Assembly (NCBI GenBank): GCA_011053005.1
Contig: DRHW01000015.1
Span: 1-64,000 of the forward strand
Reading direction: 5' to 3'
Length of the DNA stretch: 64,000 nucleotides
Source: Methylophaga sp.
GTDB taxonomy: Bacteria; Pseudomonadota; Gammaproteobacteria; Nitrosococcales; Methylophagaceae
Below, in pieces: positions 10,731 through 35,441 of this stretch (positions are counted from its first letter, which is position 1; every line of letters begins with the position of its first letter). Made by a program: the position numbers and the translations under genes. The notes under the pieces are model-generated. The model made no database searches, was not told where the DNA came from, and worked only from the letters and a program-made list of their open reading frames with translations.

Positions 10731-10754
10731 GTCTAATCCTTGGATATAGATTTG

Positions 10755-10836: not shown

Positions 10837-10955
10837 ATATTTAAATTAATTTAAATAGACTAAGAATTTAGTCTAAGCATATTATAGCGTAATTTCACGC
10901 TGTAGCTACTGTACCTTGGTACTAGAGGCTACATATTTAGCTGTTTATTGATACC

Positions 10956-16839: not shown

Positions 16840-18192
16840 ATGGCAATAGAACTCGCAACTCAGTTTGCTGAGCAGGTCAGCTTAAATCAACTTGTGCAAA
16901 ACCTCATCTACGCTTCTGGCGTTGTAGGGGCCATCTTCGTCGTAATCGGTCTTTTGTTAGTTGACATAGGTGGTACTCGAAAAGAAAACTCTTTCAACTC
17001 GGGTATTGAAAAGGTTATTGGCTTTTTTATTGGTTTTTCAGCCTATTTTTTGATTGGTTTCGCTTTTTGGGCCTCTCAGTATTACATTATGGAAGGCTAT
17101 ACACTGACTGATACCATCAAAGACTGGTGGGCAGGTGGTGTTCTCTCTAATTCGCTAGCTCAACATGTTGATCCTGCCGTATTTCCTGGGATAAATAACT
17201 TCCAGATATTCATTTTCTTTTTGGCTTGTTTCGCGGGTATCATCAATATCTTGTTACATTTTGCTGTATCAGAGCGAATGAAGGCATCAGCGTTTTATAT
17301 CACGTCATTTTTTGCCGCTATTGTTTCATCTGTTTTGAGCTGGATCACTTGGGGATCGGTTGGCCCGTTGACTAATCTAGGCTTCCACGACTTTTTTGGT
17401 GTCGCTTTTGTTTATTTGTTCCCTGCTGGTATGGCGATGGTATTTGTACGTAAATTAGGTGCACGACCAGGTATGTTCAAACCTCATCCCAAAGTGTTTG
17501 AGTACCATCCCCCAAATAATGCAATGTTAATGATCGGTATCATGACCATTTTTGCTGGTTTACCAATGATCATTTTTTCTTGTATGTTTTTCTTTGATCC
17601 GGAAGCCTTAGCTGTAAGTGTCACTATGGCAGATACCAGTATAGGCATCGCTTTAAATAACTATGCTGCGGCATGGGCAGGCGGAGCGATGATGGGTGCT
17701 ATTCTTGCTTACTCAACACGTAAATACAGCTATTTGCTATTTGGTCCTTTAGCTGGCTATGTTGCGGGCGCAGCGGGTTTAGACATTTATTTACCTTGGC
17801 AAATCTTCTTTGTCTCTTTTGGCGCACCCATTGTCGCTTATGTGATTTATGAATATATGCAAAAACGTAATATAGATGAACATAAGCTACTTCCATTGTT
17901 TGCGGGAGTAGGTTCATATGGATTAATTATGGTTGGCTTAACGCATGCTGGCACGCCTGTTGGGGGCTATGTCGGTATTGAAGAAGGCATTTATGCTTTT
18001 CAACATGCGAGGATTAGCTTAATGATGCAGCTAGTAGGTGTGGTAGTAAGTCTAGGTTTTGGTATTGTCACGGCTTGGATTTTGTCTGTCATTCTTGAGC
18101 GAACAACCGGATTGCGTGTCTCTGATGAGGATCAAGCTGAAGGTTTAGATAAAATCATTTGGGGACTTAATTCCGATGAACCAACAGCCTAG
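16840..18192 (+). CDS. amt: Amt-family ammonium/methylammonium transporter homologue lacking the twin histidines
   Basis: This 450-residue inner-membrane protein has about eleven helices in Amt order, e.g. AAWAGGAMMGAILAYSTRKYSYLLFGPLAGYVAGAAGLDIYLPW (~270-315). Two pore histidines normally control NH4+ passage. The first, expected after an acidic-Phe-x-Gly segment, falls where this protein reads DFFGVAFVYLFPAG (Tyr). The second, expected in GVHG, falls where it reads AGVGSYG. Both seem absent, so transport properties may differ (for example charged methylammonium). It lies between the outer-membrane protein and the mgd-gmaS-mgs operon, supporting uptake of methylated amines or ammonium handling. 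No glnK follows. The alignment is by eye. Confidence 0.82.
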   Translation: MAIELATQFAEQVSLNQLVQNLIYASGVVGAIFVVIGLLLVDIGGTRKENSFNSGIEKVIGFFIGFSAYFLIGFAFWASQYYIMEGYTLTDTIKDWWAGGVLSNSLAQHVDPAVFPGINNFQIFIFFLACFAGIINILLHFAVSERMKASAFYITSFFAAIVSSVLSWITWGSVGPLTNLGFHDFFGVAFVYLFPAGMAMVFVRKLGARPGMFKPHPKVFEYHPPNNAMLMIGIMTIFAGLPMIIFSCMFFFDPEALAVSVTMADTSIGIALNNYAAAWAGGAMMGAILAYSTRKYSYLLFGPLAGYVAGAAGLDIYLPWQIFFVSFGAPIVAYVIYEYMQKRNIDEHKLLPLFAGVGSYGLIMVGLTHAGTPVGGYVGIEEGIYAFQHARISLMMQLVGVVVSLGFGIVTAWILSVILERTTGLRVSDEDQAEGLDKIIWGLNSDEPTA

Positions 18193-19564: not shown

Positions 19565-20806
19565 ATGCCTTATAAACTGCTTAAATTTGGTTTCGGTCGT
19601 GAGTTTAATGAATCACGTTATTTTGAAGACGTTCAAACACCTAAGAAAACCTATGATGTAGTCATCATAGGTGGTGGTGGTCACGGCTTAGCGGCAGCGT
19701 ATTACCTAGCAAAAGAACATGGTATTACAAATGTTGCCGTTTTAGAGCGTGGCTATATCGGTGGTGGTAATACCGGCAGAAATACCACTATTGTCCGATC
19801 AAATTATCTAACACCTGAAGGTGTGAAATTCTACGATGCCAGTGTGAAATTATTTGAAGGTTTATCGGAAGAGTTAGATCTCAATATGTTTTATTCGACT
19901 CGTGGCCATTTTACATTGGCTCATACCGATTCATCGATGCGTACCATGCGGTGGCGTGCAGAAGTGAATAAACATGTAGGCGTTGATAGTAGAGTCGTTG
20001 GCAGAGATGAAATAGCAAAAGCTTGTCCACAAATGGATCTTGATTGTAGTGGTCATGCTGCTATTAAAGGTGCTTTGTATCACAATCCTGGATCGGTTGC
20101 TCGTCATGACGCGGTTGCCTGGGGTTATGCACGTGGCGCTGCTAATTTGGGTGTCGATATTATTCAAATGACGGAAGTACAAGATATCGATGTTCGTAAT
20201 GGCAAAGTTCATGGCGTACAAACAAGTAAAGGCTATATCTCTACTGGTAAAGTCTTATCTGCTGTTGCTGGCTTTACACCTAGAATCACTAAGATGGTCG
20301 ATATTAAAACACCGATTACCATCCATCCATTACAAGCTTGTGTGACAGAGCCAATGAAGCCATGGTTAGACACCATAATTGTGTCGGGCAGTTTACATGT
20401 TTATGTCAGCCAATCATCACGTGGTGAACTTGTTATGGGATCTTCTTTAGATCCTTATGAACTTCACTCAACACGTTCAAGTTTTGATTTTGTTGAGGGT
20501 TTAACGTCTCACATCGTTGATATGTTCCCATTCCTTTCGAATGTCAAAGTGGTTCGTCAGTGGGCGGGCATGGCCGATTTAACCCCAGACTTTGCTCCCA
20601 TTATGGGCAAAACAGAAATAGAAGGCTTTTATCTTGATGCCGGCTGGGGGACATGGGGCTTTAAGGCGACGCCAATCAGTGGCAAAACCATGGCAGCCAC
20701 TATTGCCAATGATAAAGCACATGATTTGATTCATTCATTCCGCCTGTCTCGCTTCGAAGATTACGAACTTACAGGCGAAAAAGGTGCGGCTTCGGTTGGC
20801 CATTAA
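19565..20806 (+). CDS. mgdA: N-methylglutamate dehydrogenase subunit A (sarcosine oxidase beta-like)
   Basis: This 413-residue FAD-dependent amine oxidase/dehydrogenase has its dinucleotide-binding motif VVIIGGGGHGLAAAYYLA at ~32-49, then GGGNTGRNTTIVRSNY, typical of heterotetrameric sarcosine oxidase beta. It catalyses oxidation of the N-methyl group of N-methylglutamate, giving glutamate and a C1 unit. It is the first gene of a four-subunit set (beta, delta, alpha, gamma order) followed by gmaS and mgsABC. That context distinguishes it from true sarcosine oxidase and makes N-methylglutamate the likely substrate. Upstream lies a sigma-70 promoter and the TTAAGTAGTAAT element. Confidence 0.9.
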   Translation: MPYKLLKFGFGREFNESRYFEDVQTPKKTYDVVIIGGGGHGLAAAYYLAKEHGITNVAVLERGYIGGGNTGRNTTIVRSNYLTPEGVKFYDASVKLFEGLSEELDLNMFYSTRGHFTLAHTDSSMRTMRWRAEVNKHVGVDSRVVGRDEIAKACPQMDLDCSGHAAIKGALYHNPGSVARHDAVAWGYARGAANLGVDIIQMTEVQDIDVRNGKVHGVQTSKGYISTGKVLSAVAGFTPRITKMVDIKTPITIHPLQACVTEPMKPWLDTIIVSGSLHVYVSQSSRGELVMGSSLDPYELHSTRSSFDFVEGLTSHIVDMFPFLSNVKVVRQWAGMADLTPDFAPIMGKTEIEGFYLDAGWGTWGFKATPISGKTMAATIANDKAHDLIHSFRLSRFEDYELTGEKGAASVGH

Positions 20807-20825
20807 TTCAAATAGGTATTGAGAT

Positions 20826-21101
20826 ATGAAATTACTTAAATGCCCAATAAACGGCACAAGACCCATCAGCGAATTTGTTTACGGCGGCACGTATCGGGAT
20901 ATGCCAGATCATGAAATTGTGACAGATTCTGAATGGGCGTCTTATGTTCATTATCGTGACAACGCGCCAGGCTTAAAAAAAGAATGGTGGTATCACGGAC
21001 CCAGTGGAACCTGGTTTATTGCAGAACGAAACACACTTACTGACGAAGTTAAAGATACCTACCTTTTTAATAAGCTCGTTGAGCAGGAGTCAGTAAAATG
21101 A
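20826..21101 (+). CDS. mgdB: N-methylglutamate dehydrogenase subunit B (SoxD-like delta)
   Basis: This 91-residue protein has the SoxD pattern: CPINGTRPISEFVYGGTY, EWASYVHYRDNAPGLKKEWWYHGPSGTWF and ERNT. In sarcosine oxidase the delta subunit binds zinc through three Cys and a His. Here only Cys6 and His57 remain: the second Cys is Asn9, and the last is Gly61. The zinc site is probably lost, leaving a structural role. The stop overlaps the mgdC start (ATGA, 4 nt), so translation is coupled. Confidence 0.88.
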   Translation: MKLLKCPINGTRPISEFVYGGTYRDMPDHEIVTDSEWASYVHYRDNAPGLKKEWWYHGPSGTWFIAERNTLTDEVKDTYLFNKLVEQESVK

Positions 21102-24001
21102 ACATGCGTATTAATAAACAAACTGGCGAATGGCTTGAGCGGGAAAAGCAAATTAACTTCACTTATGAAGGTAAGAAGTTTACAGCTTATGAAGGCGACA
21201 CGATTACCAGTGCATTATGGGCATCAGGTGAAAAAGTATTAGGCCGAAGCTTTAAATATCATCGTCCGCGTGGCGTATTAAGTTTAGCGAATCATGATAT
21301 TAACGTGATGTTAACTGATGGTGTGGATACTAATATACGTGGTGACGTTATTACGGTTAAAGAGGGCATGTCTTTAACCGCGGTCAATACATTAGGTGGC
21401 GTAAAAAAAGATAACTTACGTTATATCGGTAAGCTACTATCGCCATTTTTGGTGGTTGGTTTTTACTATAAAGCCTTTTTTAGACCAAGATTTATGTTCC
21501 CATTTTGGGAAAATATTATTAGACATGGTGCTGGTTTAGGTAAAGTTAATTTCAATTACCCAAGAATACCGAAACCTAAATTAAATGAACATTATGATGT
21601 TCTAGTTGTTGGGGCAGGGCCATCGGGTTTAGCAGCAGCATTAGCCGCTTCGCTTGATAAACAACTTAAAATCTTAATTGTTGATGAAAATAAACAAGCT
21701 GGTGGTAGTTTGGGTTATGACCGTGCTGGTAGTGTAACGCCACAATCTCAACTGGAAGAACTGCTTAGCGAAGTGAATATTACGCCCAATATCACGTTGC
21801 GAACAGATGCTTACGCGGGTGCTTATTACACGGATCATCTTATCCCAATTATTGAGTTTAGTGGCATTACTAAAGTGCGTACTAAAACATTGATCATTGC
21901 GACGGGTGTTTTTGAGCAACCGCCCGTCTTTCGTAACAATGATTTACCCGGCGTAATGAATGGTTCTGCTGCACAGCGAATGATTTATCGCTACGGTATC
22001 AAGCCATTTAATGATGGTGTTGTATTTACGGCTAATGATTATGGTTATCGCGTTGCTTTAGATTTAATCCATGCCGGAACAAATGTAAAAGCAGTGGTTG
22101 ATTTAAGAAAAACACCTGTTTCCAGTATATTGACAAGAGAACTGGCTAATCACGACATACGTATTTATTCGGGTCATTGCGTTTATGAAGCGTTAGCCAC
22201 TTCAGATGATATGGCTGTAAAAGGTGTCGTCATATGTCCATTTGATGAAGAGACTAATCAAGCCGATTCTGAACAATCATTCACTATTGAATGTGATGGC
22301 GTAGCAATGAGTGCCGGTTGGGCATCTGCTGCAGCCTTGTTATACCAATCTGGTATGAAAGTTAAATACGATTACACCATCGAACAGTTTATTCCTGATT
22401 CATTACCTAATGGCATATTCGCAGCAGGTAAAGTAAATGGTGTTTATGATTTTGACCAACGCATTGCTGATGGCGCACGAGCAGCAGCTGAAGCGATGCG
22501 TTATATGGGGATGGATAACGCGCCTGTTATTACAGTACAAGCTCATAGCAATGTATCACCGAGTCATTCTTTTCCTGTCGTGCCACATCCTAAAGGCAAG
22601 AATTTTGTTGATTTTGATGAAGATATTCAAGCTAAAGATTTTATTAATGCCGCAAAAGAAGGGTTTGATAATATTGAGTTGATGAAGCGATTCACAACGG
22701 TGGGAATGGGACCAAGTCAAGGCAAACATTCTAATATGAATGCCATTCGTATTTTGGCGAGAATTCGTGAGTTGCCCGTTGAAAAAATTGGTTCAACAAC
22801 ATCTCGACCTTTCTTTCATCCAACACCGATTGGTCACTTAGGTGGTCGAAACTTTCATCCGGTACGTCAATCTTCAATCCAAAGCTGGCATGCCGATGCG
22901 GGAGCCGTATTTGTTGACGTGGGTGCATGGTCTCGTCCAGCTTACTATCAAAAACCGGGTGTAGATCTTGCTGAAATTATTCAACAAGAATCAATGGCGG
23001 TACATAACGCTGTCGGCATTATTGATGGTAGTTCACTCGGTAAGATAGAAGTATGTGGTCCGGATGCCGCTCAGTTTTTAGAAAAGTTTTTTACTGGGAA
23101 ATTCGCTGACCAAAAAGTAGGTGAAATTCGCTACGCTTTATCTATTGATGAGTCTGCTGTTGTGGCTGACGATGGCATTGTAAGCCGGGTAAAAGATGAA
23201 CTGTTTTATATCACTATCGGCACCTCTAATGCAGCGATGGTCTACCGTGAAATGCAACGCTGGTTGCAAATGTGGCAGCTAGATGTTGGGCTAATTAATG
23301 TGACTGGCAGCTACGGCATCATTAACGTTGTTGGTCCTAAAGCTGTACATGTAGTGTCATCGCTTACACAAGATCCTTTAGTTTCAAAACTAACGGCAGG
23401 TAAGGTCGGCGAGACGATAATTTCAGAAGTGCCTGTTCGGATTATGTGTGTAACTTTTGTATCGAATATTGGTTACGAAATTCATGTGCCCGCAGATAGC
23501 ATGTTGGCTGTTTGGGAGAAACTGATCAAAGCAGGAACGGCTTATGATATTCGCCCATTTGGCACCGACACACAACGCTTATTAAGACTAGAAATGGGCC
23601 ATTATTTACCGGCTTACGATACTGATGGACTCACCATTCCTTATGAATTGGGTTGTGAATCTGAATTGGCTATGGATAAACCTTTCTTTGTCGGACAACG
23701 CAGCTTGAAAATTCTAGCTAAGAAAACGCTTAAAAAACGTCTTGTTCCTTTTGTTCTTGCTGACAATTTTTCTGGTCAAATGCCTGAAGATTGTAATTTG
23801 GTTATTGAAAACGGTGAAATTAAAGGCCGTGTCACCAGCATTTCTTATAGTAGCAAAGTCGATCGGGTTATTGGTTTTGCCTATGTTGATCCAAATAAGG
23901 TGGAAGCCGGTTCTCAATTTGAAATTAGAACTGACAATGGATCAATGGTGAAGGCTACCGTTGTTAACACTCCATTTTTTAATAGTAAAAAGGAGTTTTG
24001 A
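21098..24001 (+). CDS. mgdC: N-methylglutamate dehydrogenase subunit C (sarcosine oxidase alpha-like)
   Basis: This 967-residue three-part subunit starts with a ferredoxin-fold-like N-terminal domain (~15-90; KKFTAYEGDTITSALWASGE...SFKYHRPRGV). A pyridine-nucleotide/FAD domain follows, with [18 protein letters not shown] at ~167-184 and the second motif TLIIATGVFEQPP. The C-terminal GcvT/tetrahydrofolate-binding domain (~590-960) includes VNVTGSYGIINVVGPKA-like sequence and GYEIHVPADS. In the sarcosine oxidase family the C1 unit is transferred to tetrahydrofolate in this last domain, giving 5,10-methylene-H4F. It works with MgdA, MgdB and MgdD in the cytosol. Length matches the family (~970). 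Confidence 0.92.
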   Translation: MNMRINKQTGEWLEREKQINFTYEGKKFTAYEGDTITSALWASGEKVLGRSFKYHRPRGVLSLANHDINVMLTDGVDTNIRGDVITVKEGMSLTAVNTLGGVKKDNLRYIGKLLSPFLVVGFYYKAFFRPRFMFPFWENIIRHGAGLGKVNFNYPRIPKPKLNEHYDVLVVGAGPSGLAAALAASLDKQLKILIVDENKQAGGSLGYDRAGSVTPQSQLEELLSEVNITPNITLRTDAYAGAYYTDHLIPIIEFSGITKVRTKTLIIATGVFEQPPVFRNNDLPGVMNGSAAQRMIYRYGIKPFNDGVVFTANDYGYRVALDLIHAGTNVKAVVDLRKTPVSSILTRELANHDIRIYSGHCVYEALATSDDMAVKGVVICPFDEETNQADSEQSFTIECDGVAMSAGWASAAALLYQSGMKVKYDYTIEQFIPDSLPNGIFAAGKVNGVYDFDQRIADGARAAAEAMRYMGMDNAPVITVQAHSNVSPSHSFPVVPHPKGKNFVDFDEDIQAKDFINAAKEGFDNIELMKRFTTVGMGPSQGKHSNMNAIRILARIRELPVEKIGSTTSRPFFHPTPIGHLGGRNFHPVRQSSIQSWHADAGAVFVDVGAWSRPAYYQKPGVDLAEIIQQESMAVHNAVGIIDGSSLGKIEVCGPDAAQFLEKFFTGKFADQKVGEIRYALSIDESAVVADDGIVSRVKDELFYITIGTSNAAMVYREMQRWLQMWQLDVGLINVTGSYGIINVVGPKAVHVVSSLTQDPLVSKLTAGKVGETIISEVPVRIMCVTFVSNIGYEIHVPADSMLAVWEKLIKAGTAYDIRPFGTDTQRLLRLEMGHYLPAYDTDGLTIPYELGCESELAMDKPFFVGQRSLKILAKKTLKKRLVPFVLADNFSGQMPEDCNLVIENGEIKGRVTSISYSSKVDRVIGFAYVDPNKVEAGSQFEIRTDNGSMVKATVVNTPFFNSKKEF

Positions 24002-24002
24002 T

Positions 24003-24656
24003 ATGAGCATGATGAAATCGACACCCGTTGCATATTTCCAAAAAAATCTTAATCCGAAATGGGGAGAAGTCAATGGCACGCAAGTCGCCATGAGCTTTGA
24101 TACACCAGAGATAGAGCAACAAAGAAAAAAAAATCTAGGTGTGACAGATGTGAGTTGTCGTCAACGATTTGGTGTTAAAGGGCCAAAAGCCAATCAATGG
24201 TTAGCGACACAAAATATTAAAACGCCTGATTCAATTAATTCATGGGTTTTAGATAACGATGTTCTCGTGTTAAGGCTCGGTAGTTCTGAATTTTTAATTG
24301 AACAACAGGTTTCTGGTGATGTTTGTAAACAGCTCAATCAAGTTAGTCAAACCGCGGCGGTAGGTGTTTATAAAGTCTTACGTGCAGATGCTGCTTTTGT
24401 AATTAGTGGCGATCAAATACTGACTATGTTTTCAGAGTTATGCAAATTGGATTTGAGTGCTGAAGCACTTAAGCCCAATCAATTAATCATGACTCAGGTA
24501 GCAGATATTTCAGCCACGATAGTGTCTGAAATAACAAATGGCCAGTTAGTTATTCGTTTGTGGTGCGATGGCACCTATGGCGCCTACATGTGGAGAGTGC
24601 TACATCAACTTGCCGAAGAGTTAGGTGGTGGAGCAGTGGGTTTAACTAATTGTTAA
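24003..24656 (+). CDS. mgdD: N-methylglutamate dehydrogenase subunit D (SoxG-like gamma)
   Basis: This ~217-residue protein of the sarcosine oxidase gamma (SoxG) type has a reduced GcvT-like fold without a cofactor motif, e.g. VTDVSCRQRFGVKGPKANQWLATQNI and VLRLGSSEFLIEQ. The open frame extends back to 23961 inside mgdC, but ATG 24003 starts one base after the mgdC stop and has AAGGAG seven bases upstream. It completes the heterotetramer. The gene before gmaS, its stop is 38 nt from the next start. Confidence 0.85.
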   Translation: MSMMKSTPVAYFQKNLNPKWGEVNGTQVAMSFDTPEIEQQRKKNLGVTDVSCRQRFGVKGPKANQWLATQNIKTPDSINSWVLDNDVLVLRLGSSEFLIEQQVSGDVCKQLNQVSQTAAVGVYKVLRADAAFVISGDQILTMFSELCKLDLSAEALKPNQLIMTQVADISATIVSEITNGQLVIRLWCDGTYGAYMWRVLHQLAEELGGGAVGLTNC

Positions 24657-24694: not shown

Positions 24695-26035
24695 ATGAAG
24701 ACGGTACAAGAAGCTAAAAAATTTCTTAAAGATAATGATGTTAAATATGTCTTAGCACAATTTGTAGATCTTCATGGCGTAGCCAAAGTGAAGACTGTAC
24801 CAGTTGCCCATGTTGAGACTATTTTGAGCCCAGGTGCAGGGTTTGCGGGTGGAGCAATTATCGGTTCGGGTATTGAGCCAAATGGTTCAGATTATTTTGC
24901 TCGTGGTGATTTATCCACATTATCATTATTACCTTGGCAAAAAGGTTATGCACGGATCATTTGTGATGGTCATGTTGATGACAAACCGTATGATTATGAC
25001 ACTCGTGTTGTTTTGAAAAATCAAATGGCTCGTTTGAAAGAAAAGGGATGGTATTTGTATACAGGTTTAGAACCTGAGTTTTCACTTCTTAAAATCACTG
25101 AATCAGGCGAAATCGTGCCTGCAGAAAAAACTGATACGCTGACTAAACCTTGTTATGACTATAAAGGTATAACACGTAGTTGTGAATATCTAGAAAGAAT
25201 GACGGAAGCTTTAATTGAAGCAGGCTTGGACATATACCAAATCGATCATGAAGATGCCAATGGTCAGTTTGAAATTAACTACACCTTTGATAACTGCTTA
25301 AAAAGCGCCGACGATTACATCATGTTCAAAATGGCTGCCAGCCAAATTGCTCATGAAATGGGCATGATTTGTTCATTTATGCCTAAGCCATTTACTAATA
25401 AACCAGGTAATGGCATGCATATGCATATGTCGATTATGGATGAAGGTGGTAAGAAAAGTTTATTCCATGATGATAGTGATAAAACCGGTCATGGTTTATC
25501 TCCACTAGCCTACCATTTTCTTGCTGGTATTTTAGAGCATGCTCCTGCGATTTGTGCGATTGCCGCACCGACGGTGAATTCCTACAAACGCCTAGCTGTT
25601 AGTCATTCTGTAACTGGATCCACATGGGCACCAAGCTATGTTTCTTACGGTAATAACAACCGTTCAACGATGGTACGAATTCCATACGGTCGTTTAGAAC
25701 TACGCCTCCCGGATGGTGCGTGTAATCCTTATTTAACAACCGCTGCGATCATTGCAGCAGGTCTTGACGGTGTAGAACGTAAATTGAATCCAGGTGCTGG
25801 TAATGCTGGCAACTTGTTTGCTCACACTCATGCTGAATTAGAAAAAATGGGCATTGGTATCTTACCTCAAACTTTAATCGAAGCGACTGACGCTTTGGAA
25901 AAAGACACCATTCTTTGTAAAGCATTAGGTGAAGGAGTCAGTAAAGAATTTATTAACTTAAAACGTGCTGAATGGGCTGAATATCAACGCCATGTTTCAG
26001 ATTGGGAAATTAAACGCTACGTAGAATTTTTCTAA
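24695..26035 (+). CDS. gmaS: Gamma-glutamylmethylamide synthetase
   Basis: A glutamine-synthetase-fold ligase (446 residues, shorter than GlnA at ~470) joining methylamine to glutamate with ATP. GS hallmarks are the N-terminal beta-grasp ([18 protein letters not shown]), [22 protein letters not shown] (metal site), [11 protein letters not shown] and the late loop [26 protein letters not shown]. Absence of a GlnA adenylylation-loop signature, and the position between mgdABCD and mgsABC, indicate GMAS rather than ammonium-fixing GlnA. This is the entry step of the N-methylglutamate pathway. AGGGTGAATAT precedes ATG 24695. Confidence 0.93.
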
Positions 26036-26051
26036 AAATTAGGAGCATATT

Positions 26052-26948
26052 ATGTGTGGAATTGTAGGGTTATTGATTAAAAATGAAATACTGAGACCCC
26101 AAATAGGTAAGTTAATGTTGCCTATGTTAATTGGGATGACAGAACGTGGGCCTGACTCGGCTGGTTTAGCAATTTTTGGTTCAGCAGCGAAAGATAATGA
26201 GCGGAAAATCAGCTTATATACCTTTGATCCTGAGTTTATCTGGAAAAAATTAAGTGATGATTTTCTTGATCACTTAGGTAGTGATGTACATCTTCAACAG
26301 GTTGCCAACCATGCGGTTATGACAACAACCCTTGATGTGAACTTAGTGAAAATATGGCTTAAAGAACATTATCCTTCGGTACATATTTTGTCAGTAGGAC
26401 AATTGATGGAAGTCTATAAAGATGTAGGAACGCCAGCACAAGTTGCTCAGCGTTATGGCTTTGAAGGCATGAGTGGCACACATCTTATTGCTCATACCCG
26501 TATGGCAACAGAATCTGCAGTTACACCTGAAGGTGCTCATCCATTTACAGCTGGCGAAGATTGGGGCCTTGTTCACAATGGTTCATTTTCTAACCCAAAT
26601 AGCATCCGTCGTATGTTGGCACATAAAGGTATTAATTGTGTAACTGATAATGATACGGAAGCGGCGTGTCGCTTTTTAGAATGGCGCATGCGTGAAGGTG
26701 ATGATTTAGAAGCAGCATTACATGCTGGTTTTGAAGAGTTAGATGGTTTCTTCACTTTACTGATGGGAACAAAAGATCAACTTGCGTTAGTTCGTGATCC
26801 TTTTGCATGTAAACCAGCCGTTGTTGCTGAACATGATGATTATGTAGCGATTGCATCTGAATATAGATCGTTAGCTCACTTACCAGATGTTAAAAATGCC
26901 AACATTTATGAACCTAAGCCAGAGGAGCTTTACATATGGAAAGTTTAG
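26052..26948 (+). CDS. mgsA: N-methylglutamate synthase subunit A (class-II glutamine amidotransferase)
   Basis: Begins MCGIVG, so Cys2 is the N-terminal nucleophile of a class-II (Ntn) amidotransferase. GMTERGPDSAG (~29-39), THLIAHTRMATESAVTPEGAHPF and LVHNGSFSN complete the glutaminase site. It would release methylamine from gamma-glutamylmethylamide and channel it to the synthase site. At 298 residues it corresponds to the first domain of glutamate synthase split into a separate gene. AGGAGCATATT precedes the start. It overlaps mgsB by 13 nt. Confidence 0.92.
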   Translation: MCGIVGLLIKNEILRPQIGKLMLPMLIGMTERGPDSAGLAIFGSAAKDNERKISLYTFDPEFIWKKLSDDFLDHLGSDVHLQQVANHAVMTTTLDVNLVKIWLKEHYPSVHILSVGQLMEVYKDVGTPAQVAQRYGFEGMSGTHLIAHTRMATESAVTPEGAHPFTAGEDWGLVHNGSFSNPNSIRRMLAHKGINCVTDNDTEAACRFLEWRMREGDDLEAALHAGFEELDGFFTLLMGTKDQLALVRDPFACKPAVVAEHDDYVAIASEYRSLAHLPDVKNANIYEPKPEELYIWKV

Positions 26949-27619
26949 ATCTTGAGAAAATGAGCGTTAGGGATATCAACCAATATCTTCATAAAACGCT
27001 ACCTGGAACGGATGTAACCGAGCTGGAAATTATTAACCCAACAGGTGAACATAATATCGCGGTGGGTATGGACACTGAATGTACGATTGATGTTCGTGGC
27101 CATGCAGGTTACTACTTAGGCGGCATGAACAAAAAAGCCAATATTACGGTACATGGCAATGTGGGTAATGGTGTTGCTGAAAACATGATGTCAGGCAGTG
27201 TACATGTTAAAGGTTTTGCTTCTGCTTCTGCAGGCGCAACTGGCCATGGTGGAACTTTAGTTATCGATGGCGATACTGGTTTGCGTTGTGGTATATCAAT
27301 GAAAGGTATCGATATTGTCGTTGGTGGCAGCATTGGTAACTTCTCCGGTTTTATGGCACAAGCAGGTCGGATGGTGGTTTGTGGTGATGCCGGTGAAGGT
27401 TTGGGTGATTCACTTTATGAAGCAGTGATCTATGTTAAAGGAACTATAAAATCATTGGGTGCAGATGCCCAGTTAGAACCGATGACAGAAACGGATCACA
27501 AGGCACTTAAAGAGCTACTTGATTTTGCTGGATTTGATCATGATCCAAAAGAATTCAAACGCGTAGCTTCAGCAAAACAGTTATATAACTGGAATGCTGA
27601 TGCCAACCAAGAATATTAA
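26936..27619 (+). CDS. mgsB: N-methylglutamate synthase subunit B (GXGXG domain)
   Basis: This 227-residue protein equals the C-terminal GXGXG right-handed helix domain of glutamate synthase. Repeating turns are visible at HAGYYLGGMNKKANITVHGNVGNGVAENMMSGSVHVKG, GATGHGGTLVIDGDTGLRCGISMKG and GSIGNFSGFMAQAGRMVVCGDAGEGLG. The role is structural, bridging glutaminase and FMN domains. The start overlaps mgsA, with its ribosome site AGAGGAG inside that gene. Confidence 0.9.
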   Translation: MESLDLEKMSVRDINQYLHKTLPGTDVTELEIINPTGEHNIAVGMDTECTIDVRGHAGYYLGGMNKKANITVHGNVGNGVAENMMSGSVHVKGFASASAGATGHGGTLVIDGDTGLRCGISMKGIDIVVGGSIGNFSGFMAQAGRMVVCGDAGEGLGDSLYEAVIYVKGTIKSLGADAQLEPMTETDHKALKELLDFAGFDHDPKEFKRVASAKQLYNWNADANQEY

Positions 27620-27636
27620 TACTGGAGTCTATCACT

Positions 27637-28986
27637 ATGAGTAAACATCAACATTTAGAAGAAAGCGTTGGCTTTAGCAGCAAGACCAGAGACTACATTC
27701 AACGTGCTTCTTCAACAGGTCTATATGAAATAAGAGGGATTGGTGCAAAAAGAGCGTTGCCATCATTTGATGACTTAGTTTTTCTTGCTGGTTCAGCATC
27801 ACGTTATCCCTTAGAAGGTTACCGTGAAAAATGCTCGACAAAAACAGTATTAGGTACGCGTTTTGCGAAAAACCCTATCGTGTTGGATACGCCTATTACT
27901 GTTGCTGGTATGAGTTTCGGTGCATTGTCAGCCAATGTGAAAGAATCATTAGGTATGGCCGCGACCAACATGGGTACGTCTACAACGACTGGTGATGGTG
28001 GTATGACGCCGGAAGAACGTAACTCATCTAAAACATTAGTTTATCAATGCTTGCCATCACGTTATGGTTTTAATCCTGATGATGTTCGTCGTGCTGATGC
28101 GATTGAACTGGTTATCGGCCAAGGTGCTAAACCTGGCGGCGGCGGTATGTTGTTGGGACAAAAAGTAAATGCAAGGGTTGCAGGTATGCGTACTTTGCCA
28201 CAAGGTGTTGATCAACGCTCAGCATGTCGTCACCCTGATTGGACTGGCCCTGATGATCTTGCTATCAAAATAGCTGAATTACGTGAATTGACTGATTGGG
28301 AAAAACCTATTTACATCAAAATAGGGGCAACTCGCGTCTATCATGATGTCAAATTAGCGGTGCATGCAGGTGCTGATGTAATTGTTGTCGATGGTATGCA
28401 AGGTGGTACGGCAGCAACACAAACGGTCTTTATCGAACATGTTGGTATTCCAACGCTAGCAGCACTTAGACAAGCAGTTGAAGCCCTAGAAGACATGGAC
28501 ATGTTTGGAACGGTACAGTTAATCGTATCAGGTGGTATCAGATCAGGTGCTGACGTTGCTAAAGCGTTAGCGATGGGTGCTGATGCGGTGGCAATTGGTC
28601 AAGGCATGATGATTTCATTGGGCTGTAATAGTGAAACATATATTAAAGATGGTGAACATCATTCTGCTGAAGCTGATTATGCGGCGCTAGGTACTAAAGC
28701 TGGTTTTTGTCATCATTGTCATACCGGTAAATGTCCAACAGGTGTCACAACACAAGATCCGATTCTAGAGCAACGTATTGAACCTAAAGTGGGTGCTAAA
28801 CACGTTACCAACTATATCAAAACGCTCACTATGGAATTAACAACCGTAGCACGTGCTTGTGGTAAATCGAATGTTCATCATCTTGAACGTGAAGATTTAG
28901 TGGCGTTAACCATTGAATCTGCTGCGATGGCGAAATTGCCTTTAGCAGGAACATCCTGGATCCCTGGCGTTACTGAAAACAAGTAA
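27637..28986 (+). CDS. mgsC: N-methylglutamate synthase subunit C (FMN/Fe-S glutamate-synthase domain)
   Basis: This 449-residue counterpart of the central FMN-binding domain of glutamate synthase contains VAGMSFGALSANVKESLGMAA, TGDGGMTPEERN, GQGAKPGGGGMLLGQKVN, VVDGMQGGTAATQTVF, ISGGIRSGADVAKALAMGADAVAIGQ-type phosphate loop and a Cys cluster CHHCHTGKCPTGV for the iron-sulfur centre. It makes N-methylglutamate from 2-oxoglutarate and channelled methylamine with reducing power. It is the last of mgdABCD-gmaS-mgsABC; a hairpin follows the stop. Confidence 0.93.
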   Translation: MSKHQHLEESVGFSSKTRDYIQRASSTGLYEIRGIGAKRALPSFDDLVFLAGSASRYPLEGYREKCSTKTVLGTRFAKNPIVLDTPITVAGMSFGALSANVKESLGMAATNMGTSTTTGDGGMTPEERNSSKTLVYQCLPSRYGFNPDDVRRADAIELVIGQGAKPGGGGMLLGQKVNARVAGMRTLPQGVDQRSACRHPDWTGPDDLAIKIAELRELTDWEKPIYIKIGATRVYHDVKLAVHAGADVIVVDGMQGGTAATQTVFIEHVGIPTLAALRQAVEALEDMDMFGTVQLIVSGGIRSGADVAKALAMGADAVAIGQGMMISLGCNSETYIKDGEHHSAEADYAALGTKAGFCHHCHTGKCPTGVTTQDPILEQRIEPKVGAKHVTNYIKTLTMELTTVARACGKSNVHHLEREDLVALTIESAAMAKLPLAGTSWIPGVTENK

Positions 28987-29265: not shown

Positions 29266-29604
29266 ATGAGCGAAAATTTAGATAAAAGAATCCACGCACT
29301 ATATCGACAAGACTTCATGTTTGCCTGGTTTGATGTTGCATTTTTATGGGCAGCGATCGGCTTTGTTTTGTATTTTGTTTTACAGATTGTTGATAACAGT
29401 GCCATTCGTATAGCTTTATATTGTAGTAGTGCCGTTTTACTGATTTTTAATACCGCATCAGTGAAGGCAATGACCAATCATTACTGTGAAGACAAGGATT
29501 ATATTTATGGTCTAGATATCAGACACATGGATATGAATCGTCAAATTAAATTAGCTAAAAAAAATAACGATAAAGTAGAAACTTACGTTATCAATCATAA
29601 ATAA
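29266..29604 (+). CDS. Small two-helix membrane protein of the permease cluster
   Basis: I do not recognise the family. This 112-residue protein shows a cytosolic-looking N-terminus (SENLDKRIHALYRQDFM), two hydrophobic segments (~24-44 and ~50-68) and a charged tail with HYCEDKDYIYGLDIRHMDMNRQIKLAKK. A good AAAAGGAATGATC ribosome site precedes ATG 29266. It is the first of three consecutive small membrane genes leading into an APC permease, suggesting an accessory or assembly role for transport of the cognate amine. Confidence 0.75.
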   Translation: MSENLDKRIHALYRQDFMFAWFDVAFLWAAIGFVLYFVLQIVDNSAIRIALYCSSAVLLIFNTASVKAMTNHYCEDKDYIYGLDIRHMDMNRQIKLAKKNNDKVETYVINHK

Positions 29605-29653
29605 AAAGAGCTGAAAAAATAAATAATATAAATTAAGAAGAGAGAAAATAATT

Positions 29654-30052
29654 ATGGAAAACATATATAAACCGCCGAAGCAAAAATGGTTCGGCCAAGC
29701 ATTTGATAGTATTTTCATTTTAGTTTTAGTTTACGCAAGTTTAATGGCCCCTTTACTTCTCGATTCAGACGATGAAGTCATCAATCCGGATAATCTCTCC
29801 GTTCAAGTTAGCCCAACCTGGGAAGCACTCAATGTCAATGCTGTAGAACAACAGCAGTGGGAAAAGTTAGGCTTCGATGCTGAAAAAGCAGCAGAGCTCA
29901 TTAATAAACGCTTTGACTACACCATTGAACCAATATCGCTCATTGTTACCGCACTGTTCATCATCGGCTATTTCTTTTTTATGCTCAAAGTATCTAAAAA
30001 GCAATATCTAGAAGTCATCGCCGAAAAATTTGGGTCTTCATCACAAGACTGA
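29654..30052 (+). CDS. Small two-helix membrane protein of the permease cluster
   Basis: 132 residues of unknown family. A positive N-terminus (YKPPKQKWFGQAF) precedes helix 1 (SIFILVLVYASLMAPLLL). A ~65-residue acidic loop with DSDDEVINPDNLSVQVSPTWEALNV probably lies in the periplasm, then helix 2 (ISLIVTALFIIGYFFFML) and a short charged tail. AAGAAGAGAG lies upstream of the ATG. Spacing to neighbours is under 50 nt, so it is probably in one transcript with them and the permease. Confidence 0.75.
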   Translation: MENIYKPPKQKWFGQAFDSIFILVLVYASLMAPLLLDSDDEVINPDNLSVQVSPTWEALNVNAVEQQQWEKLGFDAEKAAELINKRFDYTIEPISLIVTALFIIGYFFFMLKVSKKQYLEVIAEKFGSSSQD

Positions 30053-30075
30053 AACTAATACAACGAGGTAACGTT

Positions 30076-30270
30076 ATGAATATATGGGATATGTTGAGTT
30101 ATGCCGCATGGGTGGCAGCAGGTTTATTTCTTCTGTGGATAGTTGTTGATGCTATAAAAGTATCACTCACCTATGACGAAGATTTATTAATGAGTTCACG
30201 TGAAGGTTTGGATGAATTAGATCCAGATCAAGCCCAATCTCATGCCGTGGAGAATAGTCATGCAAAATAA
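30076..30270 (+). CDS. Single-helix small membrane protein of the permease cluster
   Basis: 64 residues: one hydrophobic helix (MLSYAAWVAAGLFLLWIVVDAIKV) followed by an acidic C-terminal half (TYDEDLLMSSREGLDELDPDQAQ). The family is unknown. Its end overlaps the probable permease start at 30260 by 11 nt, and CAACGAGGTAAC gives a ribosome site. Small one-helix partners of transporters are known in other families; that is the likely role here. Confidence 0.72.
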   Translation: MNIWDMLSYAAWVAAGLFLLWIVVDAIKVSLTYDEDLLMSSREGLDELDPDQAQSHAVENSHAK

Positions 30271-31660
30271 TACGACAACGGAAAGCACGGGCACAGGCAC
30301 GCATATGAACATGCTTAAAGTGCTTACACCTTTTCATGTGTGGGCATTGGGTGTGGGTATTGTGCTCGTCGGTGAATTCATGGGATGGAATTTTTCGGTT
30401 GCAAAAGGGGGCGCTTATGGCGCCTTAATTGCTTGTTGGGTTATCGGTCTGCTTTATTCTTGCGTGGCGATGATAGATTCAGAAGTGACATCTACAGTAG
30501 CGGCAGCAGGAGGTCAATATACGCAAGCGAAACATATTGTTGGCCCATTAATGGCGTTTAATGTTGGGCTATATCTTGTTATGGCTTACACGATGCTTGA
30601 AGCAGCAGATGCCTTAATTGTCGGTGATTTAATGACGGCGATGGCGGCGACATTTGGTCATGAAGGCTTAGATCCTAAACCATTTGTTGTACTGACGATT
30701 GCATTTCTTGCTTGGTTAAATTATCGAGGTGTATTCACGACATTATCATTGAATTTTGTGATTACTATCATTGCCTTTGCATCTATTTTAGTGTTGTTTG
30801 TTGCCGTTGAACCAACCAATCCGGGTGCTGTATTACAACATGAAGGGCTATTAACCGATTTGCCTTATGGCTGGATTGGTGTCGTGGCATCGTTACAATT
30901 TGGCATGTGGTATTACCTAGGTATTGAAGGTACGTGTCAAGCAGCAGAAGAAGTGCGATCAGCAGGGCGATCTATTCCACTGGGCACGATGGGTGGAATG
31001 ATGACATTGCTTATTGCTGCAACATTGACTTGGTATATTTGTACTGGTTTATTACCTTGGCAATATTTAGGTCAGGCATTTACACCTTTATATGATGCGG
31101 CGAGTATTTTAGGTAATACAAAACTACAAGTCTTGTTATTTGTTGCGACCATGTTTGCTGCTATTGCGTCTGCTAATGGTTGTATTAATGATGCGGCTAG
31201 AGCGTGGTTTTCTATGGGACGTGATAGTTATATGCCATCGTTCTTTGGCGCTATTCATCCTAAATATCGGACACCTTATCGTGCGATTATATTTTTGGTG
31301 CCTATCGCGGTGTCATTTGCCTTTACCGGTTTACTTGATCAGGTTATTACCTTCTCTATTTTATCTGGGTTATTGGGCTATACCTTCATGTCACTCAATG
31401 TCATTAAGTTTAGGAAAATGTGGCCATTAGGTAGTATTCATCGTGGTTATGTACATCCTTTCCATCCACTACCTGCTTATACATTGTTAGCACTTTGTTC
31501 TACAACGTATTTTGCAACGTTTCTTGGTTATGGTTCATCGTTGCTGTCTATTTTAGCCTTTTATATTGTGGCTTCTATTTGGTTTACAGTTCGTCGTTAT
31601 AAGTTTGTAAAACGTGGCGAGCAATTCACTATGTCATGGCCTCGTCCCAAAGGGTTCTGA
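30260..31660 (+). CDS. APC-superfamily amino acid/amine permease
   Basis: About 466 residues with twelve expected helices. The APC-fold start is LTPFHVWALGVGIVLVGEFMGWNFSVAKGGAYGALIACW, with helix-1 break GEFMGWN, followed by SEVTSTVAAAGGQYTQAKHIVGPLMAF, as in ethanolamine/amino-acid permeases of the EAT type. The frame opens at 30242, but ATG 30260 has TGGAGA at a normal distance and is preferred. Located directly after mgsC and three small membrane genes, it probably imports methylamine, another methylated amine or a glutamate derivative. Substrate assignment is by context. Confidence 0.85.
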   Translation: MQNNTTTESTGTGTHMNMLKVLTPFHVWALGVGIVLVGEFMGWNFSVAKGGAYGALIACWVIGLLYSCVAMIDSEVTSTVAAAGGQYTQAKHIVGPLMAFNVGLYLVMAYTMLEAADALIVGDLMTAMAATFGHEGLDPKPFVVLTIAFLAWLNYRGVFTTLSLNFVITIIAFASILVLFVAVEPTNPGAVLQHEGLLTDLPYGWIGVVASLQFGMWYYLGIEGTCQAAEEVRSAGRSIPLGTMGGMMTLLIAATLTWYICTGLLPWQYLGQAFTPLYDAASILGNTKLQVLLFVATMFAAIASANGCINDAARAWFSMGRDSYMPSFFGAIHPKYRTPYRAIIFLVPIAVSFAFTGLLDQVITFSILSGLLGYTFMSLNVIKFRKMWPLGSIHRGYVHPFHPLPAYTLLALCSTTYFATFLGYGSSLLSILAFYIVASIWFTVRRYKFVKRGEQFTMSWPRPKGF

Positions 31661-31739
31661 TAATTTCAGTGAATTAAATGTGAAACAAGATGAGTGGAAG
31701 CTGACTCATCTTGTTTTACTTCCAATGAGGAAACAAATT

Positions 31740-32408
31740 ATGACTGCTGAACTGTCATTTTTCGCCATTGCTCCATTGATAGCAATGTCGGTTTATTACT
31801 TATTTCAACGCTCACAAATTGCCATTAAAAATAATCGGGCGATGTTGTTGAGTGACTGTAATTCGATGTTAGATAACAGTGCTACCTCTTATGAAAGTAA
31901 TGGCTTTCCTATTATTAAAGGTCGTTATCGTGATTTTGATGTTCAACTTAATCTGATCCCAGATACCATTGTGATGAGAAAAGTACCACCTCTATGGCTA
32001 ATGGTTAGTATCAAAGCCAATAAACAATCTAAAGGTAGTATGGATTTCATTGTTAGGCCACAAAACAGTGAGTTTTATAGCCCTGGTTGGCGTTGGGATG
32101 GTTTATTCAAAGTACCCGCAACGTGGCCACAATATTCTATTGCTAAATATAACGACACAACAGCATCAATCTCAGTATTAGATAAATTTGTACCTGACTT
32201 ATTTAAAGATGAAAAAGTAAAACAATTATTAGTGATGCCTGACTCCCTAAGAATTACCTATATGGCTAAACAAGGGATAAGAGGGGAATATTTATTAACA
32301 CGTGGTGCCGTATTTGATGAGCATGCTATTAATAGCGATGAAGTCAAAAAAATCATTGAATATGCCATTGAAATTAGAAAAAACATAGAAGAAGAGAGCA
32401 CGTTATGA
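31740..32408 (+). CDS. Membrane-anchored protein of unknown function
   Basis: The track of open sequence starts at 31614 inside the permease gene, but ATG 31740 has AGGAAA eight bases upstream and gives a natural N-terminus. One N-terminal helix (AELSFFAIAPLIAMSVYYLF) is followed by ~190 soluble residues with two segments resembling a beta-rich fold (GFPIIKGRYRDFDVQLNLIPDTIVMRKVPPLWLMVSI). I do not recognise a family. The end overlaps the next small membrane gene by 4 nt (ATGA). It belongs to the permease operon and precedes the globin gene. Confidence 0.72.
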   Translation: MTAELSFFAIAPLIAMSVYYLFQRSQIAIKNNRAMLLSDCNSMLDNSATSYESNGFPIIKGRYRDFDVQLNLIPDTIVMRKVPPLWLMVSIKANKQSKGSMDFIVRPQNSEFYSPGWRWDGLFKVPATWPQYSIAKYNDTTASISVLDKFVPDLFKDEKVKQLLVMPDSLRITYMAKQGIRGEYLLTRGAVFDEHAINSDEVKKIIEYAIEIRKNIEEESTL

Positions 32409-32695
32409 CACATATATATGAAGAATCAAAACAACGAAAAGCGCCGTTATCTCCTTATTTAGTCTTATTTATTGCCATTGTATTACCCGGCATGGGTCAA
32501 GTATTAAATAATACACCGTTGCGTGGTTTGATCATGCTTGGCTTTATGCTGATGCTTGGGGTTTTAACGTATCAGGTCGCTAGCCCTGAAGTCTCCGTTA
32601 TAGGTAAGTTCGCTGGTGGGATATTTCTTTATTCTATTATGATTTTTGATGCTTATTATTGGGCAAAATATCGTTCGCTTATTTTTGACAATTAA
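32405..32695 (+). CDS. Small membrane protein (TM2-like)
   Basis: 96 residues with a polar start (THIYEESKQRKAPLSPY) and three hydrophobic stretches (LVLFIAIVLPGMGQVLN, LIMLGFMLMLGVLTYQV, FAGGIFLYSIMIFDAYYWAKY). PGMGQVLNNTPLRGLIMLG recalls TM2-type proteins. Function unknown. It is translationally coupled to the upstream gene by an ATGA overlap, so the two products may interact. Confidence 0.72.
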   Translation: MTHIYEESKQRKAPLSPYLVLFIAIVLPGMGQVLNNTPLRGLIMLGFMLMLGVLTYQVASPEVSVIGKFAGGIFLYSIMIFDAYYWAKYRSLIFDN

Positions 32696-32800
32696 AACGG
32701 TTTTTGATGATTAAGCGGTCTAATAGTTAGAATTTATAAAGATAAATGCAAAGATCATCACGAGGATAATAGATCAAGGTTTCAAGAAGGTGGGAGACAG

Positions 32801-33223
32801 ATGACGGGCATTTCAACAGTCAATATTAACAATAAAAAAAGTAAGCAATGGCTTTATGATGCCGTCGGTGGACAAGATGGCATCATCATTGTCGTCAACT
32901 TATTTTATGATTTTGTTGAGTCGACACCTGAGGGGAGACCGGTTGCTAAGCTACATCTACGCGGACATGGTATTGCTCATGCTCGTATAGAGTTGGTTAA
33001 TTTTCTATCGGGTTTTTTAGGTGGACCTAGTTTATTTGCAGAGAAATGGGGTCATTCAAATGTAAGACTGATTCATGAGCATGTCAGCATTAATAAAGAG
33101 GCAAGAGATTCGTGGATGGCCTGCATGGAGATGGCAATGACACAATTAGATTATGACGATGAATTAAAACAACGCTTAACCGAAAACTTTCTGGTTATTG
33201 CCACTTTATTGATTAATCATTGA
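32801..33223 (+). CDS. Truncated hemoglobin (group II-like)
   Basis: The 140-residue 2-on-2 globin has LYDAVGGQDGIIIVVNLFYDFVESTPEG at its start, FLSGFLGGPSLFAEKWGH, and the F-helix region VRLIHEHVSINKEARDSWMACMEMAM with the probable proximal His at ~91. The cofactor is heme; functions include O2 or NO handling. It lies ~100 nt after the small membrane genes, with a GGTGGGAGACAG ribosome site. Beside oxygen-dependent DMA oxidation and heme-containing DmmC, a role in O2 delivery or NO defence is imaginable, but unproven. Confidence 0.85.
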   Translation: MTGISTVNINNKKSKQWLYDAVGGQDGIIIVVNLFYDFVESTPEGRPVAKLHLRGHGIAHARIELVNFLSGFLGGPSLFAEKWGHSNVRLIHEHVSINKEARDSWMACMEMAMTQLDYDDELKQRLTENFLVIATLLINH

Positions 33224-33322: not shown

Positions 33323-33397
33323 TACGTTTGCCAGCAAGATTGATAATGTACCTGCAACATAGTTGTTTTCTCTTAACCCAGCTTATGGGTGTTTTTG

Positions 33398-33424
33398 AGG
33401 GATCTTAATTGATCCCTTTTTTTT
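33398..33424 (+). terminator. Rho-independent terminator in the globin-folE2 gap
   Basis: AGGGATC (33398-33404), loop TTAATT, GATCCCT (33411-33417), then eight T's. A smaller hairpin ACCCA-GCTTA-TGGGT (33376-33390) precedes it. It may simply end the globin transcript, but if the promoter lies near the element at 33287 it would be an attenuator in the folE2 leader. Confidence 0.8.
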
Positions 33425-33477: not shown

Positions 33478-34272
33478 ATGAATTTTCCATTGCAATTAGA
33501 ATTAGTTGATGTTCAGAACACGCCAGATCTACGCGAGTTTTTAATCGATCAAGTAGGCATCAAAGGAATCAGACATCCGATACGGTTTAAAAGTAAAGAG
33601 GGTGAAATGCAATCAGTAGTGGCAATGTTCAATATGTATGTGCGTTTACCCGATCATGTTAAAGGTACGCATATGTCTCGTTTTGTTGAGATCCTCAATG
33701 TGCCTAACCGGGTTTTTTCTTTAGAGACTTTTGAAAATCTTACCCGAGAAATGCTTGATAAATTAGATGCTAAAGCCGGTGAGATAGAAATGCGTTTCCC
33801 ATTTTTTGTCAACAAGACAGCACCAGTATCAGGTGTTGAAAGTTTGATGGATTATGATGTGGCACTAACCGCTAAGGTGCAAGACAATCTGTTTAATTTG
33901 ACGATTAATCTGATGATTCCGGTGACTAGCTTATGTCCATGTTCTAAAAAAATAAGTGAATATGGGGCTCATAATCAACGCTCGCACGTAACAATTACCG
34001 TTAATTCCTCACAATATATTTTGCTAGAAGAATTGATTACCTTGGTTGAAAATCAAGCATCTAGTCAGCTTTATGGATTACTTAAACGGACAGATGAAAA
34101 GTATGTCACAGAATATGCCTATGACCATCCTAAGTTTGTCGAAGATATGGTGCGCGATGTAGCAGGCGAGCTTTCAAAGGATCGCCGTATTATTAATTAC
34201 GTTGTTGAGTGTGAAAATTTCGAATCGATCCATAATCATTCTGCTTATGCAAAAATTGAGAGGACACTATGA
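33478..34272 (+). CDS. folE2: GTP cyclohydrolase FolE2 (type IB)
   Basis: This 264-residue enzyme converts GTP to 7,8-dihydroneopterin triphosphate, the entry to folate and other pterins. The FolE2 hallmark is PVTSLCPCSKKISEYGAHNQRSHVTI (~146-171) with the catalytic Cys, and PVSGVESLMDYDV. FolE2 is metal-flexible and often used when zinc is short. Here it heads a pair with a RibB-type gene (4-nt overlap) inside the methylamine island, so it may supply extra pterin for the tetrahydrofolate-dependent Mgd and DmmD reactions. Confidence 0.92.
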   Translation: MNFPLQLELVDVQNTPDLREFLIDQVGIKGIRHPIRFKSKEGEMQSVVAMFNMYVRLPDHVKGTHMSRFVEILNVPNRVFSLETFENLTREMLDKLDAKAGEIEMRFPFFVNKTAPVSGVESLMDYDVALTAKVQDNLFNLTINLMIPVTSLCPCSKKISEYGAHNQRSHVTITVNSSQYILLEELITLVENQASSQLYGLLKRTDEKYVTEYAYDHPKFVEDMVRDVAGELSKDRRIINYVVECENFESIHNHSAYAKIERTL

Positions 34273-35441
34273 ATAATACCGTTTATCCAGCATCCTTCAG
34301 AGCAAATTCTATGAACGGAATTTCGCCTATTACTGACATTATTAAAGACATGAGTCAGGGTAAAATGATCGTGCTCATCGATGATGAAGGTCGTGAGAAC
34401 GAGGGTGACTTAATATTAGCAGCCGAATTTGTGACACCTGAACATATTAACTTTATGGCTCGATACGGAAGAGGGCTTATTTGCCTGACATTGAATGAAG
34501 CGCGTTGTCATCAATTAGATTTGCCGTTAATGGTCAAAAAAAATAAAGCCAGTATGGGCACTAATTTTACTGTTTCAATTGAAGCGGCTGAAGGTGTGAC
34601 AACAGGCATTTCAACAGCAGATCGTGCTCGAACTATCCAAGCGACAGTGGCAAAAGATGCGAAGCCACAAGATATTGTTAAGCCGGGGCATATTTTTCCA
34701 TTAATGGCTCAAAATGGTGGTGTGTTAGCGAGGGCAGGACATACCGAAGCAGGCTGTGATTTAGCTGAACTTGCTGGTCTTGAGCCTTCTTCCGTTATTT
34801 GTGAAATATTGAAAGAAGACGGCAACATGGCAAGACTACCTGATTTACTTGAGTTTGCTGCTGAGCATCATCTTAAAATAGGCCGAATTGCCGATTTGAT
34901 TCAATATCGAAATCAGACTGAAACACTGGTTGAGCGTATTTCTGAACGTACTATCAAAACAACTTATGGTTATTTTAATCTGATTGCATATCGTGATAGA
35001 ACAACTCAGCAAATTCATATTGCACTTGTTTATGGAAAACCCGATCCTAAACAAGCGACATTGGTACGTGTCCATGAGCCATTATCTCTAATCGACTTAT
35101 TGGATATGGGCAGTTCGACCCATAGTTGGGGCATTAATGGCGCGATGGCGGCAATTGAAGATGCAGGTTGTGGTGTGATTGTTTTATTAAGAAGAAACGA
35201 AGACGAAGATGATTTACTCAAACGGATAGAAGATACAGCGATTGTGCAAGATGCTGACTATGAATTGCGAGACTTTGGTATTGGTGCTCAAATTTTAAAA
35301 GATATTGGTGTTAAACGGATGCGTCTAATGACTAATCCAAAGAGAATGCCTAATTTGACGGGGTTCGAGTTGCAAGTAGAAGGTTATATCTCACCAAAAA
35401 GTGATGATGAAATGATGGAGTATCAGCGTCATTATTCTTAG
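34269..35441 (+). CDS. ribB: 3,4-dihydroxy-2-butanone-4-phosphate synthase with degenerate RibA-like domain
   Basis: The N-terminal ~220 residues are a full Rib[20 protein letters not shown] (acidic active-site loop), [20 protein letters not shown], and [23 protein letters not shown]. It makes the 4-carbon unit of riboflavin from ribulose 5-phosphate. The C-terminal ~165 residues keep the GTP-cyclohydrolase-II outline ([23 protein letters not shown]) but lack the zinc Cys segment (SECLTGD...RCDCG), so that half is inactive, as in RibBX-type proteins. Coupled to folE2 by 4 nt. The likely purpose is a flavin supply for Tmd (FMN), MgdA/C, MgsC and ETF. Confidence 0.9.

Follow-up and report, generated by a model that had tools for sequence, protein, structure and literature searches.

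A conserved permease block with small membrane proteins beside the N-methylglutamate pathway genes of Methylophaga, a candidate methylammonium importer

Directly 3' of the N-methylglutamate synthase genes of a Methylophaga genome lies a block of six genes, encoding a permease of the APC superfamily and five small membrane proteins, that is kept together in Gamma-, Beta- and Alphaproteobacteria. We interpret it, with a probability of about 0.6, as a dedicated monomethylammonium importer serving the N-methylglutamate pathway, in which the small proteins would act as subunits and assembly factors. Methylamine is an abundant source of one-carbon units and nitrogen in the sea and in soil, and the enzymes of its degradation are known; in the literature searched, Amt was the one dedicated bacterial methylamine importer found, and this six-gene set did not appear. 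The block offers a precise, testable importer candidate in three proteobacterial classes and gives a likely job to four uncharacterised protein families (p112, p132, p64 and p222). It also raises the possibility that APC carriers, which are usually seen as acting singly, depend in bacteria on small partner proteins and on a helper resembling TtfA or CCDC47.

The window (the whole stretch of DNA analysed, 64,000 nucleotides) contains the block together with the genes of the pathway. The seven open reading frames that a first-pass annotation had reported from p112 to the globin are all present on the forward strand, and they are listed here with the relevant upstream genes.

16840..18192, + strand: divergent Amt-family transporter, 5' of the pathway genes (PF00909, 98 bits)
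19565..24656, + strand: mgdABCD (soxBDAG-like), N-methylglutamate dehydrogenase
24695..26035, + strand: gmaS, gamma-glutamylmethylamide synthetase
26052..28986, + strand: mgsABC, N-methylglutamate synthase, directly 5' of the block
29266..29604, + strand: p112, two predicted transmembrane (TM) helices and a conserved tail of cytoplasmic type
29654..30052, + strand: p132, a TM helix, a loop of ~55 residues predicted to be periplasmic, and a second TM helix
30076..30270, + strand: p64, a single TM helix, N-out/C-in by charge, and a conserved tail
30263..31660, + strand: APC permease, apparently EAT (ethanolamine permease)-like, with a reading frame that can also be read from 30242
31740..32408, + strand: p222, an N-terminal TM helix and a cytoplasmic alpha/beta domain with a modelled TtfA/CCDC47-like fold
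32405..32695, + strand: p96, three predicted TM helices and a PGMGQ motif, distantly DUF5683-like
32801..33223, + strand: truncated (bacterial-type) globin, PF01152, accessory and outside the core

The permease start at ATG 30263, giving 465 aa, is favoured because the homologues are 463-465 aa long, and with this start the gene overlaps p64 by 8 bp. At the remaining junctions, 279 bp separate mgsC from p112, 49 bp p112 from p132, 23 bp p132 from p64 and 79 bp the permease from p222, which overlaps p96 by 4 bp, and a further 105 bp lead to the globin. A pattern match located a terminator-like stem (33397-33418) 3' of the globin only, and an Rfam search of the block for regulatory RNA gave no match. 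Across six homologues, third codon positions mismatch at a rate of 0.62-0.68 and second positions at 0.21-0.39, which shows purifying selection acting on all six block genes. This mismatch pattern, together with the large families of homologues that align with the small reading frames over their length, identifies the latter as real genes.

Conservation of the block was assessed by scanning a permease alignment against 84,980 species genomes, which yielded 317 relatives, and by reading the best 80 of these 317 loci. The first-pass annotation had staked its proposal on the small genes being retained beside the permease in relatives, and this they are: p112-p132-p64-permease-p222-p96 appear in identical order and on the same strand in 70 of the 70 loci with adequate flank, and the small membrane protein genes also adjoin the transporter gene in 22/22 plasmids. 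The latter come from an independent collection in which searches with the permease and with p132, run separately, returned the same 22 of 22 records; in annotated plasmid records the small proteins are labelled 'hypothetical protein', and one Sinorhizobium meliloti record carries p132 and p64 without any annotation. The hosts comprise Methylophaga, Methylophilaceae, Methyloversatilis, Paraburkholderia, Oxalobacteraceae, Rhodocyclaceae, Methyloligella, Methyloceanibacter, Aurantimonas and Roseovarius. Overlong p64 and p132 reading frames in some loci were considered as fusions and rejected, being taken as start-codon artefacts of GC-rich DNA. The gene entourage originally proposed needs revision: a universal stress protein gene is a frequent addition (27/70 loci), and the 222-residue anchored protein belongs to the conserved block, whereas the globin does not, as it was found near the block in 12 loci only and in varying places. 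The globin gene lies 5' of p112 in Paraburkholderia and near EamA, on the opposite strand, in Methylophilaceae; loci with a globin near the block include the window (32801-33223), L065, L067, L070, L072, L073 and L079.

The association with methylamine metabolism is close. In a sample of 398 Pseudomonadota genomes, p132 was found in 14, every one of which also carries a gmaS-type gene, as against 50 of the 398 overall (hypergeometric 4e-14, a value that ignores kinship, draws many of its genomes from one genus and includes the window's own genome). In 13 of the 14, p132 and gmaS lie within ~18 kb on one contig. The reverse does not hold, 36 of the 50 sampled genomes with a gmaS-like gene having no block. 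Of the 57 loci flanked by 9 kb or more on each side, 45 have gmaS or mgs genes in the flanks fetched, and distant hosts, Paracoccus aminophilus (plasmid pAMI6) and S. meliloti, also have the block with mgsABC-gmaS. For genomes that have the block but no gmaS close to it, methylamine dehydrogenase was considered as the pathway and rejected, its light chain being found in 1/14 only.

Published expression data are available from Methyloversatilis universalis FAM5, in which growth on methylamine raised the N-methylglutamate genes and 'co-clustered conserved proteins' 6-10-fold, with amino-acid permeases among the induced functions (PMC5023235). The four Methyloversatilis loci read all have the arrangement mgd-gmaS-mgs-block, and a review gives the FAM5 order as mgdABCD-gmaS-mgsABC; the FAM5 locus tags 760114-117, tabulated as mgdABCD after mgsC (PMC5023235), may for these reasons be block genes.

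A further line of evidence is the exchange of the block with Amt transporters. In genome G035, of the same genus as Methylophaga relatives, genes for a universal stress protein (Usp) and an Amt stand between mgsC and folE2, in the place that the block takes in the other Methylophaga. Genome G013, from the window's genus, retains the order of the island (regulator, mgd, gmaS, mgsABC, folE2, ribBA, EamA), but has lost the block between mgsC and p96, where the leader sequence and a relic of p222 remain ahead of p96, itself intact (L159:13571-13952). Amt genes were found within ~9 kb in 2/57 block-positive N-methylglutamate loci as against 8/19 block-negative ones (Fisher 1.3e-4, uncorrected). For Pseudomonas sp. 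C5pp, a gmaS-mgsABC-amt operon has been reported, in which Amt was named the methylamine transporter (PMC8292978). Amt/Mep proteins (PF00909) thus take a position next to gmaS-mgsABC equivalent to that of the block; they differ from the permease in both fold and family. The window itself has both an Amt and the block, so the exchange is a tendency and not a rule. Methylammonium is a known Amt substrate, but Amt proteins transport ammonium too, and Amt replacement consequently does not single out methylammonium. As a side observation, genome G006, of the same genus, retains the island-adjacent regulator (L034:8624-9202, 94% identical to window 18419-19012) next to a 46-aa permease relic (L034:9688-9825), with no other island gene on the fetched stretch, which represents a decayed copy.

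The permease itself belongs to the APC superfamily (PF00324, 85 bits against a cutoff of 24.6; PF13520, 82 bits against a cutoff of 27); these AA_permease families alone match it, with no match to PF00909, which places it outside Amt/Mep. Its best NCBIfam profile is the ethanolamine permease TIGR00908 (178 bits, below the cutoff of 381.75), and its top matches among solved structures are xCT and GkApcT. In APC carriers, a glycine motif in TM1 binds the carboxylate of the substrate. Where amino-acid permeases have GAGIFV in TM1, the family described here has VGE[FY]MGWN, and the glutamate (E45) is present in at least 97% of 81 permease sequences; given that the glycine motif holds a carboxylate, a conserved acid in its position suits an amine without one. 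An EAT-like protein (L005, itself below the TIGR00908 cutoff at 302 bits) likewise carries an acidic residue, in the sequence GDFSGWN. The permease belongs to the same superfamily as the ethanolamine permeases (TIGR00908, TC 2.A.3.5 EAT), has their profile as its best match and resembles the EAT-like L005 in the acidic residue of the TM1 break, but differs in scoring far below the cutoff, in being always accompanied by five small membrane proteins and in its linkage to methylamine genes. A lysine in TM5 is the proton site of GkApcT (PMC5803215); the TM5 lysine of aligned amino-acid permeases faces an alanine in the permease, and a proton site of the GkApcT type is apparently absent.

These observations make methylammonium a likely substrate of the permease. 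As the translocating subunit, it would hold the cationic amine at E45 in the TM1 break, where the glycine motif of amino-acid permeases holds the substrate carboxylate, and, because the TM5 lysine is missing, uptake could be driven by the membrane potential. The TIGR00908 match could instead indicate another cargo, such as dimethylamine, trimethylamine, an amine similar to ethanolamine or an intermediate of the N-methylglutamate pathway, or the system might export ammonium or methylammonium, methylamine use being a source of ammonium. The block also occurs in the metagenome-assembled genomes L097, L103 and L105, in which a search for gmaS, mgsC and the methylamine dehydrogenase light chain detected none of these; this, too, speaks for a different cargo. 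The block-bearing clusters, however, contain N-methylglutamate genes without dmm or tmd genes nearby, and the block is swapped for Amt and not for an amino-acid or betaine carrier, so that a cargo or direction of this kind appears quite unlikely. The first-pass proposal of a multi-subunit importer for a methylated amine is thereby strengthened as regards import, by the gmaS/mgsABC linkage, the amine-permease-type TM1 and the Amt replacement; its multi-subunit part is one that we infer.

A true multi-subunit complex is to be regarded as probable, though somewhat less so than methylammonium transport. The small proteins had been described as unrecognisable, which holds in Pfam and NCBIfam searches for p112, p132, p64 and p222, none of which has a Pfam family or, in profile searches, a credible sequence relative in the PDB; p96 shows weak similarity, below the cutoff, to DUF5683/DUF7533/DUF6677. 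Individual members of the p112 and p132 families gave scattered, weak Pfam matches, desaturase and BCCT among them, which were for that reason rejected as chance similarities between hydrophobic helices. The model of p132 is poor (pLDDT 76, pTM 0.35) and falls below use for a fold search. The tails of p112 (FNTASVxAMxRHYxEDKDxIYGLDIxHLDxNR) and p64 (YDEDxLMSSREG) are conserved. We propose that p64, with one TM helix, and p112 and p132, with two each, might be permanent subunits seated on the permease, which they would stabilise or gate.

Systems in which an APC-fold carrier works with partner proteins have precedents. MetPS of Corynebacterium glutamicum is a LeuT-fold transporter that needs a single-TM partner of ~60 residues encoded beside it; the block differs from MetPS, which belongs to the NSS family, has methionine as its substrate and has one partner only. 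In GkApcT, the single-TM protein MgtS is packed on an APC-fold transporter (PMC5803215). This pair and the mammalian LAT/xCT light chains with 4F2hc or rBAT combine an APC fold with a single-TM partner, as proposed here; MgtS, however, came from the host and was captured during crystallisation, 4F2hc has a large ectodomain, and no resemblance of either to p64, p112 or p132 is known.

The remaining two proteins, p222 and p96, would contribute to assembly, stability or activation. The AlphaFold model of p222 (pLDDT 93.6) matches TtfA (6t84) with Z 12.3 and rmsd 3.7 over 154 aligned residues, and CCDC47 (7tm3_4) with Z 11.9 and rmsd 4.1 over 201. CCDC47-type chains of three translocon entries, their identity being deduced from the entries, gave Z values of 11.9, 10.0 and 9.3, and the next unrelated matches, type III chaperone-like folds, reached Z 7.6; in Foldseek, 6t84 alone passes E 0.001. 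As judged from the model, the domain after the N-terminal TM helix shares the TtfA/CCDC47 fold, whereas a profile search of PDB sequences found similarity of p222 to neither protein, and the literature search returned no paper joining the two. TtfA is complexed with the transporter MmpL3 and essential to it (PMC6593404), and CCDC47 and Asterix together make up the PAT complex, which acts on multipass proteins (PMC9630114). In both precedents the clients are polytopic membrane proteins, though likeness of a modelled fold is no proof of a common job. The mycobacterial TtfA resembles p222 in having an N-terminal TM helix followed by a domain of the same modelled fold and, as proposed for p222, a transporter partner, which in the case of TtfA belongs to another superfamily (RND). 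Similarly, the gene after p222 always encodes a small protein with several TM helices, which recalls the pairing of CCDC47 with Asterix, but CCDC47-Asterix is a eukaryotic, ribosome-linked general chaperone, unlike p222-p96. A bolder version of the proposal, in which permease, p112, p132 and p64 form an obligate complex for methylammonium uptake distinct from Amt and p222-p96 is an assembly unit and bacterial counterpart of CCDC47-Asterix, is at present doubtful.

The likeness of p222 both to TtfA and to the PAT chaperone component CCDC47 also fits another arrangement, in which the permease imports methylammonium alone and the small proteins are co-transcribed factors for membrane-protein biogenesis, regulation or envelope stress. 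A Usp gene often lies nearby, and p96, which belongs distantly to a widespread group of small proteins, outlasts the permease in G013, where it is intact after the loss of the rest of the block and so can stand alone. In the loci and plasmids read, however, p112, p132 and p64 were found solely alongside this permease, whereas a factor without specificity should accompany other permeases as well, and the permease acting alone is correspondingly unlikely.

The first-pass annotation had offered an amine-sensing complex as the other option, with the permease as a transceptor whose signal the small proteins relay. Conserved charged tails of cytoplasmic type in p64 and p112 are compatible with signalling, as is the position of Usp, whose gene lies between the permease and p222 in 27/70 loci and whose domain is fused C-terminally to the permease in two Methyloceanibacter loci (L104:9962-11803 and L109:9998-11830). 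Pfam and NCBIfam searches nevertheless detected a signalling domain in none of the parts, many clusters have a separate regulator of XRE-cupin type as a candidate sensor, and the exchange with Amt, a transporter, points to transport over sensing. Nothing found favours sensing over import, and the sensing role is very improbable; within the importer preferred here, Usp, where present, might provide nucleotide-linked control.

Several other features of these regions may be recorded. The folE2-ribBA genes (GTP cyclohydrolase and riboflavin genes; window 33478-35441) recur 3' of the block in ~26 loci, and possibly supply folate and flavin to the pathway. A locus from a record titled Klebsiella pneumoniae (L113) holds a methylotroph-type N-methylglutamate cluster, and its label is probably wrong. 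In the window, a TMAO permease is encoded at 38264-39994 (NF053774, 846 bits), within a wider methylated-amine island that extends to ~51.9 kb. On the reverse strand, a c-di-GMP-I riboswitch (10752-10840, 41.2 bits) lies just 5' of a gene (10212-10730) for a 172-aa protein that has a signal peptide and, at its C-terminus, a sorting tail of VPxP type.
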